NCBI GenBank assembly: GCA_011391405.1
Contig: JAABQQ010000216.1
Location: 1-64,000, forward strand
Reading direction: 5' to 3'
Source of the DNA: Gammaproteobacteria bacterium
GTDB lineage: Bacteria > Pseudomonadota > Gammaproteobacteria > Steroidobacterales > Steroidobacteraceae
DNA length: 64,000 bases
Of the stretch, positions 11,860 to 15,586 are shown piece by piece; positions within the stretch are counted from its first letter, which is position 1, and each line of letters opens with the position of its first letter. The notes beneath the pieces were generated by a model, which made no database searches, had not been told where the DNA came from, and saw only the letters and a list, made by a program, of their open reading frames with translations. The translations under genes were made by a program, and so were the position numbers.

Positions 11860-13314
11860 TCAGAACCGCGGCAAGTGCGAATGCGGCAACTGGCCACCGT
11901 GCACCCGCAGAGCGCCATAGTCGGCACAGCGGGCGAGAGTGGGCACCGCCTTGCCGGGATTGAGCAGGCCCGCGGGATCGAAGGCGAGCTTCAGTGCGTG
12001 GAAGGTTGCGAGCTCGGCGGCACCGAACTGCGAGCACATCGGTCCGAGCTTCTCGACGCCGACGCCGTGCTCCCCCGTCACGGTGCCACCGGCAGCGACG
12101 CAGGCTTCGAGGATGTCGGCGCCGAAGCGTTCGGCACGTTCCAGTTCGCCGTCCTTGCCGGCGTCGAACAGGATCAGCGGGTGCAGGTTGCCGTCGCCCG
12201 CGTGAAAGACGTTGGCCACGTCGAGGCGATAGGTCGTCGACAGCGTCGCGATCTGCGCCAGCACGACTGCCAGGTGACGGCGGGGGATCGTGCCGTCCAT
12301 GCAGTAATAGTCGGGGGCGAGGCGACCCACCGCGGGGAAGGCCGACTTGCGGCCTGACCACATGCGGTGGCGCTCCCCAGCGTCCCTGGCGACGCGCACG
12401 CTCGTCGCGCCGGCGGCTTCGAGCAGGGCACGGGCACGGCCGAGTTCGTCGTCGACGTCGGCGGGCAGTCCGTCGACTTCGCAGAGCAACAGTGCCTGCG
12501 CGTCCAGCGGATAGCCGCACTGTGCGAACGCCTCGGCTGCCTTGATCGCGGGGGCGTCCATCATTTCGAGTCCGGCCGGGATGATGCCGGCCGCGATCAC
12601 CTGACCGACGGCCTCGGCGCAACGGCCCACGTCGTCGAATGCGGCCAGCAGCAGTTCGACACGGCGGGGCAGCGGCAGCAAGCGCACGGCCACTTCCACC
12701 ACGACGCCCAGCAACCCTTCCGAGCCGATCACGGCAGCCAGCAGGTTGAGGCCAGGTGTCTCACCCGTCTCGCTGCCGAGCGTGAGCAGTTCGCCCTCCA
12801 TGGTGACGAGCTTCACTGCGAGCACGTTGTGCACGGTCAGCCCGTACTTGAGGCAGTGCACGCCGCCGGAATTCTCGGCGACGTTGCCGCCGACCGAGCA
12901 CGCGACCTGCGAGGAAGGATCCGGTGCGTAATACATGCCGTAAGGCGCAGCCGCCTCGGACACCGCGAGGTTCGTGACGCCGGGCTGCACGCGTGCGAGA
13001 CCGCGGCGCGGATCGACTTCGAGGATTGCGTCGAGCCGCGACAGCACCAGCAGCAGCCCGCCCGCGACCGGCAGCGCGCCGCCCGAGAGTCCGGTGCCCG
13101 AGCCGCGGGCGACCACTGGCACCGAATGCCGACGACAGATACGGACGATCTGCTGGACCTGTTCGACGCTCGTCGGCAGCGCGACCAGGTCGGGTGGGTG
13201 GCGGTGGGCGGTGAGGGCGTCGCACTCGTAGGCGACGCAGGCTGCGGGAGTGGAGAGCAGGCCCGGTCCGAGAACCGAGCCGAGTTCGCGCAACAGTCCT
13301 GCGTCAACCGCCAC
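11860..13314 (-). CDS. glcD: glycolate oxidase catalytic FAD subunit GlcD
   Basis: GlcD oxidises glycolate with FAD. The 484-residue protein contains the FAD-linked oxidase N-terminal domain ([65 protein letters not shown]). The FAD-linked oxidase C-terminal domain follows, with [23 protein letters not shown] and [11 protein letters not shown]. Length matches E. coli GlcD. The start is GTG 13314, which overlaps the last 11 bases of rpiA, so translation of the two is probably coupled. It could act on D-lactate or other 2-hydroxy acids, but the adjoining glcE and glcF make glycolate most likely. Confidence 0.93.
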
Positions 13315-13972
13315 TGGGCCGCAGGGTCTGCACGCCGGCGTCCGTGCCGATCACGAGCACGTCCGCGCCGCGCTGCGCGAACAGGCCGTTGGTGACGACG
13401 CCGGGAATCTGGTTGATCGCGCGCTCGAGGTCGACCGGATCGGCGATGTCGAGACCGTGGACGTCGAGGATGTCGCAGCCGTTGTCGGTCACCGTACCCT
13501 GGCGCCAGACCGGCTGGCCACCGAGTCGAACCAGTTCCTGCGCGACGTAGGCGCGCGCCATCGGGATGACTTCGACCGGTAAAGGAAACTTTCCCAGGCG
13601 CTCCACCAGCTTCGCTTCGTCGACGATGCAGACGAAGGTGCGTGCAGCCGCCGCGACGATCTTTTCGCGGGTGAGGGCTGCGCCGCCGCCCTTGATCAGG
13701 TGCATGCCGCGGGTCGCCTCGTCGGCGCCGTCGACGTAGACTTCGAGTCCTGCGATCGAATTCAGGTCGAGCACCGGGATGCCGTGACCCGCGAGGCGGC
13801 GTGAGCTGGCCTCGGAACTGGAGACCGCGCCGGCGATGCGGCGCGGCATGCCGGCCAGCGCATCGATGAAGAAGTTCACGGTGGAACCGGTACCCACGCC
13901 GATGATGGTTCCCGGCTGGATGTATTCGAGCGCGGCGGCCGCGGCTCGCTGCTTCTTCTGGTCCTGGCTCAT
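13304..13972 (-). CDS. rpiA: ribose-5-phosphate isomerase A
   Basis: RpiA interconverts ribose 5-phosphate and ribulose 5-phosphate in the pentose phosphate pathway. The 222-residue protein shows the phosphate loop [13 protein letters not shown], the catalytic VYVDGADEA segment, [16 protein letters not shown], and [17 protein letters not shown] 13972 is preceded by AGGG at suitable spacing; an upstream in-frame start would run into the hairpin region. The 3' end overlaps glcD, an unusual partner for rpiA. Confidence 0.95.
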
Positions 13973-14003
13973 CGTTGCCCTGCTTTCCCGACCCCTCAAA
14001 CAA

Positions 14004-14027
14004 CTGTGCCCGCTTTCGCGGGCACAG
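14004..14027 (-). terminator. hairpin terminator after the lysine-rich micro-gene
   Basis: A perfect 10-bp inverted repeat (arms 14004-14013 and 14018-14027, loop TTTC) is followed on the minus strand by a short T-rich stretch, TTGTTTGA. It lies 63 bases beyond the stop of the lysine-rich micro-gene and 31 bases before rpiA. It is therefore placed to end or attenuate the short transcript before rpiA-glcDEF. Confidence 0.6.
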
Positions 14028-14090
14028 TCGTCGTTTCGGATTCGGCGGCGTCTATCTTTCGAAGGAGCGCCGCCTCATCTTCAAGCGACC

Positions 14091-14159
14091 TTACTTCTTC
14101 TTCGCGGCCTTTTTCTTGGTGGCCTTCTTCTTGGTCGCCTTCTTTGCCTTAGCTGCCAT
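14091..14159 (-). CDS. lysine/alanine-rich micro-protein, histone H1-tail-like
   Basis: A 22-codon frame, too short for normal gene finding, encodes 12 Lys, 7 Ala, 2 Thr and one Met, arranged as KKxTKKK-type repeats ending AAKKK. It reads like the tail of eukaryotic histone H1 or of bacterial H1-like proteins, without a globular domain. A GGAG Shine-Dalgarno lies 8 bases before ATG 14159, and a strong hairpin lies downstream. Such a peptide would bind nucleic acid or other polyanions nonspecifically; that is inference. It sits between the EVE gene and rpiA. It could also be a decayed remnant of a longer basic protein, but the intact signals favour a gene. Confidence 0.6.
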   Translation of the reverse strand: MAAKAKKATKKKATKKKAAKKK

Positions 14160-14195
14160 GATCAATTCTCCATATCGGGTTAGTCCCGGGCCGAG

Positions 14196-14224
14196 TATTT
14201 ACAGAATTAAAAAAAGAAATGCAA
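14196..14224 (-). promoter_or_regulatory. candidate promoter for the lysine-rich micro-gene
   Basis: On the minus strand TTGCAT (14219-14224) is followed after 17 bases by TAAATA (14196-14201) in a markedly AT-rich stretch that contrasts with the GC-rich surroundings. The -10 match is poor, so this is only a candidate. The same T-rich tract could instead help end the EVE-gene transcript. Confidence 0.3.
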
Positions 14225-14232
14225 TAGTCGCG

Positions 14233-14763
14233 TCACGATTTTTTTGAACGCGTTCTCAGGTCGACGGTCGACTTCGTCGCTCGCGACGACGCGACGACAG
14301 GTCGCAACGCAACGATGCAATGCCATTCTGCGGCAGTGAGCGGCGTCACTGAAAGACGATTGCCGCGTTTCAGAATCAACATCTCGCGCAACGTGCCGTC
14401 TGCGTGCTCGCGCAGCTCCGGCAGCGTAATTACAGGCTCAATTCGTTTTTCGAGTTGCACGTCGACGCTGAACCAGCGCGGTGCCTCACGCGTGCTGCCG
14501 GCATCGTAGTACTCGCTCTTCGCATCGAACTGCGTCGGGTCGGGATACGCCTCGCGCACGACCTTCACGACGCCCGCGACGCCCGGAACCTCGCAGCTCG
14601 AGTGATAAAAAAAAGCGCGGTCACCTTTCCGAAAATCGTCCCGAAGCATGTTCCGCGCCTGGTAGTTGCGCACGCCTTCCCACCCCGTCGTGCGCCGCGG
14701 AGCGGCTGCGAGGGCATCAATTCCGAACACGTCGGGTTCCGATTTCAGCAGCCAGTAGTGCAT
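14233..14763 (-). CDS. EVE domain protein
   Basis: The 176-residue protein starts HYWLLKSEPDVFGIDAL and contains WEGVRNYQARNMLRDDFRKGDRAFFYHSS and GVAGVVKVVREAYPD, the core of EVE (PUA-like, thymocyte nuclear protein 1) domains. EVE domains bind modified bases in DNA or RNA. The C-terminal 20 residues are basic and probably disordered. It begins 14 bases after fau and belongs to the zapA-ssrS-fau transcription direction. The specific ligand is unknown. Confidence 0.9.
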   Translation of the reverse strand: MHYWLLKSEPDVFGIDALAAAPRRTTGWEGVRNYQARNMLRDDFRKGDRAFFYHSSCEVPGVAGVVKVVREAYPDPTQFDAKSEYYDAGSTREAPRWFSVDVQLEKRIEPVITLPELREHADGTLREMLILKRGNRLSVTPLTAAEWHCIVALRPVVASSRATKSTVDLRTRSKKS

Positions 14764-14777
14764 GCGACTTTGGTTCT

Positions 14778-15380
14778 TCAGGGTGCGTGAGGAGGGAAGC
14801 GGAGGATGCCGTGCTCGGTGACGACGAGGTCGAGAGCGACGTCCCAGGGAGCAGGATCGAGTCGATCGACCTGCTGGATCGAGTACGCGATGCCGATCAG
14901 GCGCGGGCGGCGGAACGGTTGCGTGCGATCGAGCCGTGGACGCAGCGCGCGATCGTAGAAGCCCGCGCCCATGCCGAGGCGATGGCCCTGCGCGTCGAAG
15001 CCGACGAGCGGAACGAGGATGGTGTCGAGGTGACGGACGGGGAGGCGGCCGCGCGAACCGTGCAGCGGTTCGGCGATGCCGAACATGTTTCCGCGCACCG
15101 CTGCGCCAGCCTCGAGCGGGACGAAGACCATCCGGCCGTCACGATGGTTGACGATGTGCGGCACGTAGATGCGGACTCCGCGCTGCCATGCGGCGCCGAA
15201 ACAGGGGCGCAGGTCGACTTCGCCCGGCATGCTGAGGAACGCGGCGACGCGCCGGCCGCGCTGCCAGACGCCGAGCTGGCTCAGTGATGCGCGGATCGCC
15301 CGGTCGTGGACCCGGCGTTCCGCGTCAGGGATCGCGCGACGCCCCGCGCGCAGCTGCCGGCGCAGCTCGCGGAGGGTCAT
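14778..15380 (-). CDS. fau: 5-formyltetrahydrofolate cyclo-ligase
   Basis: The enzyme converts 5-formyl-THF to 5,10-methenyl-THF using ATP. The 200-residue product has LRELRRQLRAGRRAIPD at its N-terminus, VAAFLSMPGEVDLRP, and the C-terminal substrate/ATP signature LVGFDAQGHRLGMGAGFYDRAL. I use ATG 15380 instead of GTG 15407, because the latter would begin inside the 3' stem of the 6S RNA. In E. coli fau (ygfA) is cotranscribed with ssrS, and the spacing here (about 20 bases) suggests the same. 5-formyl-THF inhibits the glycine-cleavage/SHMT branch, so it links functionally to the gcv genes in this window. Confidence 0.93.
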   Translation of the reverse strand: MTLRELRRQLRAGRRAIPDAERRVHDRAIRASLSQLGVWQRGRRVAAFLSMPGEVDLRPCFGAAWQRGVRIYVPHIVNHRDGRMVFVPLEAGAAVRGNMFGIAEPLHGSRGRLPVRHLDTILVPLVGFDAQGHRLGMGAGFYDRALRPRLDRTQPFRRPRLIGIAYSIQQVDRLDPAPWDVALDLVVTEHGILRFPPHAP

Positions 15381-15399
15381 CGTCGCAGTGGAAGGGAGA

Positions 15400-15586
15400 G
15401 GCGCCACCCGCCTGTGCCGTCACAGACCATTGCTCTCGACAAGAGCAATATTTGGGGAGGGCCGCGGCACTTAAGGCTTCCCGCTCGAGGCGGACTTGCA
15501 CAATGTTGCCGGCTGACCGTTCCCCGGGGTATTTACATTAAGGTCGAGAGGTAACCCGGCCCGTGTCGAACACCGCAGGCGGCGCC
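15400..15586 (-). ncRNA. ssrS: 6S RNA
   Basis: The 6S RNA mimics an open promoter and binds the housekeeping RNA polymerase holoenzyme. The interval between zapA and fau, the position of ssrS in gammaproteobacteria, holds a roughly 187-nt RNA closed by a 12-bp terminal stem: 15575-15586 pairs with 15400-15411, including the self-complementary GGCGCC at each end. On the 3' side the conserved AAGCCTTAA element occurs at about 15471-15479, at the position where E. coli 6S carries AGCCUUAA. Size, neighbours, closing stem and this element all agree. The exact ends are inferred from the stem. Confidence 0.88.

Follow-up and report, generated by a model that had tools for sequence, protein, structure and literature searches.

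Does a 22-codon lysine-rich frame lodged between an EVE-domain gene and rpiA encode a protein, and if so, of what kind? The question was raised by an initial annotation of the window (the whole 64,000-nucleotide stretch of DNA analysed here), which described a lysine-rich micro-gene with a GGAG ribosome site and a downstream hairpin. All three were found again. The frame encodes MAAKAKKATKKKATKKKAAKKK, 22 residues of which 12 are Lys; it lies on the minus strand, which the annotation had not given, and the whole of it is 22 codons of K, A and T without any other domain. Its GGAG lies 8 nt before the ATG, and the hairpin, with its core GTGCCCGC-GAAA-GCGGGCAC at 14006–14025 (minus strand), was extended by folding to a longer stem (Table 1). 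Among the 359 ATG-to-stop frames of 14–40 codons in the window, this is the only one with at least 40% Lys. The peptide matched no profile in Pfam or NCBIfam, and a literature search, the coverage of which mostly left out subscription journals, found no earlier description of the micro-gene.

Table 1. Features of the micro-gene locus (positions in the window).
Feature	Position	Strand	Remarks
Micro-ORF	14091..14159	-	ATG 14159-14157, TAA ending 14091; 22 codons + TAA
Shine-Dalgarno GGAG	14168..14171	-	6-10 nt from ATG in 108/108 family f1 loci
5' leader motif GGACTAAC	14179..14186	-	in 105/105 family f1 loci having 60 nt or more upstream
-10 region TGTAAATACT	14194..14203	-	family consensus TGTATATACT
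Candidate -35 box TTGCAT	14219..14224	-	by eye; 17 nt before TAAATA
Terminator-like GNRA-loop hairpin	13999..14032	-	15 pairs, weak U tail; by folding
rpiA (context)	13304..13972	-	PF06026; downstream neighbour, constant anchor
EVE-domain gene (context)	14233..14763	-	PF01878; upstream neighbour
5-formyltetrahydrofolate cyclo-ligase (context)	14778..15407	-	PF01812
6S RNA (context)	15401..15584	-	RF00013, 67.4 bits

The annotation had proposed looking for the short frame, and for third-position changes within it, in related genomes. We sampled the window's own family (f1) using rpiA and EVE as anchors: of 120 genomes searched, 114 contained rpiA and 111 were fetched with upstream sequence, with G150, G166 and G197 left out as their rpiA is at a contig edge. 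A micro-gene homologue of 14–30 residues was present upstream of rpiA in 110 of the 111 genomes and in all 24 genera, and in none of the 110 was it interrupted by a frameshift or stop. In the sole miss (G174) the contig ends after ~110 nt of upstream sequence. All 110 peptides start with MA, end with KKK, contain 50–67% Lys and are devoid of acidic, aromatic and large hydrophobic residues (no D, E, F, W, Y, L, I or C). Pro is almost absent (8 in total in 108 peptides), and Arg occurs only twice in the same number. Length is fixed within several genera, at 22 residues in 9/9 genomes of g3 and 21 in 9/9 of g5.

Third positions in the frame vary freely and the amino acids are kept. This was quantified by the uncorrected ratio of non-synonymous to synonymous change in disjoint nearest pairs of equal-length frames. 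In the true frame the ratio was 0.09 for the 16 aa group (9 disjoint pairs), 0.10 for the 21 aa group (10 disjoint pairs) and 0.12 for the 22 aa group (7 disjoint pairs); in the other two frames it was 1.95 and 9.02, 1.6 and 2.65, and 2.2 and 2.56, respectively. Smaller length groups gave true-frame ratios of 0.23 (15 aa) and 0.32 (26 aa), and the 17 aa and 20 aa groups showed synonymous change only (5:0 and 8:0). Codons in rows of equal length may not all be strictly homologous, and any such mismatch would push the ratio up rather than down. Within family f1, one peptide can be specified by many DNAs (10 different DNAs for MAKAKKKAKKKAAKKK and 10 for MATKKKAAKKKATKKKAAKKK), and 1041 of the 1226 Lys codons are AAG. 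With synonymous change favoured in one frame, and with the start, stop and Shine-Dalgarno sequence conserved, this comparison indicates that the micro-gene is almost certainly protein-coding.

The frame is accompanied by putative signals of its own. When aligned, the upstream region of family f1 reads roughly cTTgcTTG…TGTATATACT…ccCGGACTAACCcga…GGAG…ATG, where the consensus cTTgcTTG falls in the area of the candidate -35 box. The -10 box and the GGAYTAA leader motif were both found in 105/105 loci whose upstream sequence reaches 60 nt or more, and the distance from the -10 box to the ATG was 31–37 nt in 97 of 104. Downstream, a GC-rich hairpin (GCCCGC..GCGGGC, with loops that are mostly GAAA, GCAA or GTAA) was present in 108/108 loci. 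Its tails are T-poor (2–5 T in 10 for 100/108 loci), which is weak for an intrinsic terminator, and a generic sigma-70 promoter scan called no site at the micro-gene, the -35 included. Neither the hairpin nor the promoter is a repeat shared by many genes, as each has one copy in the window's own genome (for the promoter, the leader motif in combination with the -10 box). Such a layout of predicted signals is that expected of a short monocistronic mRNA.

The leader (14168–14186, minus strand) holds two GGA motifs, GGACTAAC and the GGAG of the Shine-Dalgarno sequence, family-wide and usually 14–17 nt apart. These could form a CsrA-type site and are a candidate for CsrA-type control. The first of the two is not kept in all of the long-form families described below.

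Does the neighbourhood explain the gene? The annotation had considered the setting to be unexplained by known operons, and had drawn attention to the EVE gene. On the minus strand of the window the order is 6S RNA, 5-formyltetrahydrofolate cyclo-ligase, EVE, micro-gene, rpiA and a FAD-linked oxidase. Three of these, the 6S RNA, cyclo-ligase and rpiA, form a neighbourhood with a counterpart in E. coli, zapA-ssrS-ygfA-serA-rpiA, and the setting is not without precedent. The 3' end of the 6S RNA runs a few bases into the cyclo-ligase frame when that frame is read from a GTG start. Elsewhere in the window a glycine riboswitch (RF00504, 46220–46307, plus strand) precedes frames that read by eye as gcvT, gcvH and gcvPA, an ordinary arrangement.

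The EVE gene is a neighbour of the micro-gene, not its partner. Six g6 genomes without an EVE match (G066, G079, G114, G126, G134 and G146) keep the micro-gene upstream of rpiA, with the cyclo-ligase directly upstream of it in 5 of the 6 loci (L157, L171, L192, L195 and L205); in the remaining locus, L144 of G066, the sequence stops before the upstream neighbour could be seen. No rpiA lies close to the EVE loci that were fetched from families f7 and f15, and in most of the genomes examined from these two families the Lys-rich gene stays with rpiA, which it precedes. Five loci of family f6 (L009, L023, L028, L029 and L034) have EVE-rpiA gaps of -25 to 166 nt from which the Lys-rich gene is gone, and this is a loss inside a family that otherwise keeps it. 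The gene is not a general feature of gammaproteobacterial rpiA either. A same-strand Lys-rich frame lies upstream in 3/80 named rpiA loci (L209, L210 and L267), all from relatives; the other 77 were scored without one, and these negatives include a member of the order (L287) and a few loci with little upstream sequence (for example 256 nt in L223).

Outside family f1, we examined 75 loci of the order. A Lys-rich gene occupies the same rpiA site in 61 of these (62 counting L054, scored as having none only because its frame holds N). In other families of the order it is a long, H1-like gene of about 75–209 aa, preceded by the same style of promoter and leader; a -10-like box with GGAG was found in 58 of the 61. 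The signal check failed for L305 and L032, in both of which an upstream ATG was taken, and for L072, a locus of family f10 whose long gene appears to be split by a frame break into two Lys-rich pieces. The 14 loci scored without the gene comprise 5 of f6 (plus the N-broken L054), 4 of f13, 2 of f12, 1 of f15 and L292, whose contig ends about 150 nt upstream. Complete short forms outside f1 number 5/61, with 20–35 aa, and all are in f15 (L290, L291, L293, L312 and L313, 4 of which end in KKKR); the remaining genes are either long or truncated where the contig stops. In a tree of RpiA, the f15 short forms have long-form relatives as neighbours and are separate from f1. This suggests more than one event of shortening (or, as a less simple alternative, of lengthening), in a tree of a single gene that has weak deep forks and does not recover f1 as one clade. 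The few f1 rows labelled 'long' (40–45) in this tree are an artefact of taking the longest in-frame ATG.

Because sister families carry long H1/Hc2-like Lys-rich proteins at the same locus, the annotation's likening of the peptide to a histone H1 tail is apt. The micro-gene is apparently a miniaturised H1-tail-like polycation gene with its own promoter, in which the direction of change would be from long to short. The earlier interpretation holds for coding constraint, for the gene's own promoter, leader, Shine-Dalgarno sequence and terminator-like hairpin, and for the likeness to an H1 tail, and fails for the link to EVE.

What might such a peptide do? We propose that the locus is translated as a monocistronic microprotein gene, consisting of a promoter, short leader, Shine-Dalgarno sequence, frame of 14–30 codons and GC hairpin. 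It would be the miniaturised version of a gene that is fixed at this locus and that specifies, in sister families, a long and repetitive polycation resembling histone H1 and Hc2. With a charge of about +12 and no acidic or hydrophobic residue, the peptide most likely stays disordered, as a non-specific polycation. Because of this composition, and its kinship with H1-like tails, we expect it to bind nucleic acid (DNA, or RNA and ribosomes) or polyphosphate, and such binding is probably its main action. Binding could help to neutralise or condense the target, much as a free-standing H1 tail or a polyamine encoded by a gene would. The coding constraint, the conserved signals, and the site and signals shared with the long form all argue for this explanation. 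As a counterpoint, the binding of a peptide of 14–16 residues may be too weak, or the peptide may not escape degradation. Taken as a whole, a miniaturised H1-like polycation microprotein gene is the explanation that we favour, with some confidence.

The gene may be real and yet have a target other than nucleic acid. Examples would be polyphosphate granules, a membrane, or a particular protein (such as a partner of the ribosome or of RNA polymerase). AlgP, which is H1-like, associates with polyphosphate granules (PMC9239181), and the fixed length class in several genera hints that the target is a defined one. These candidates cannot be told apart by composition alone, however, and we regard such a target as possible, if somewhat unlikely. 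It is improbable that the main role of the transcript is that of a small RNA (or of an RNA with a dual function), with the frame secondary. The leader motif and hairpin are conserved, and a 206-nt stretch folds with z = -5.75, mostly from its 3' hairpins, but the constraint within the frame is on amino acids and not on bases, and the spacer between stop and hairpin is unconserved across genera. The chances are lower again for a leader peptide, where translation of the Lys run would control read-through of the hairpin into rpiA by attenuation. While the frame does end before the hairpin, which lies between frame and rpiA in every family f1 locus, and the micro-gene still adjoins rpiA where EVE is absent, the stop codon and the hairpin are about 10–79 nt apart, and additional hairpins particular to single lineages lie in between, so that there is no fixed stall-to-hairpin geometry. 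In addition, the 75–209 aa proteins that occupy the site in sister families are far too long for a leader peptide, and we know of no tie between rpiA and lysine. Finally, f12, f13 and a part of f6 lack the gene, and its long form is repeat-rich and therefore easily shortened, but that it is a decaying remnant of a long H1-like gene, heading for loss, is very unlikely given the low non-synonymous change over 24 genera, the invariant MA...KKK ends, the intact frames and the conserved promoter and leader.

Conserved bacterial proteins of 14–30 residues can rarely be demonstrated from sequence; for the miniaturised polycation gene proposed here, constraint, promoter and hairpin agree across 24 genera. 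Gene finders with a length limit would probably miss its short members. The long-to-short series at one locus amounts to a natural experiment in how far an H1-like tail can be reduced and still function, and supplies peptides of graded length (14, 16, 22, 35 and 100–200 aa). More tentatively, a free-standing polycation that can be as short as 14 residues, family-wide and with its own promoter, could be a gene-encoded polyamine or bacterial protamine, with the H1 tail cut at least twice in one order to a working minimum within a narrow range of lengths.

How does the peptide compare with known basic proteins? Short ribosomal or protamine-like basic peptides, such as bTHX and the protamines, are tiny, extremely basic and lack a hydrophobic core. 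They are similar to the micro peptide in size and basicity, although it contains Lys rather than Arg. Another resemblance is to AlgP (AlgR3) and PhaF of Pseudomonas, for which PMC9239181 describes a disordered, H1-tail-like Lys/Ala tail that binds DNA. AlgP combines a helical N-terminal domain (124 aa) with a region of KPAA repeats (154 aa), whereas the micro form has no other domain and almost no Pro; with both the helical domain and the KPAA repeat tail absent from its 22 codons, it does not belong to the AlgP family.

DNA binding is described for the H1-like Lys-rich tails of AlgP and Hc2 alike (PMC9239181; PMC2848022). Like chlamydial Hc2 and the Hc2-like/BpH1 proteins of Burkholderia, Bordetella and Ralstonia (PF07382; NF038053, NF038052), the long forms here have Lys/Ala-rich repeats and vary strongly in length, and they have no globular domain. 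One of three long forms scanned matched Pfam HC2 (3.7e-9, 37.4 bits, under the cut-off of 40), and the other two matched neither HC2 nor any other Pfam family. In genome searches, an HC2 match over the cut-off was found in 4/40 genomes, in 3 of the 4 away from the rpiA locus; HC2 matches were absent in 24/25 family f1 genomes searched and present in 9/15 outside f1. The micro peptide itself, matching no profile, is not a member of HC2 (PF07382). Hc2-like proteins have 149–237 aa (PMC2848022), against 14–30 aa for the micro form, which unlike them is tied to a fixed site at rpiA and has its own promoter and leader.
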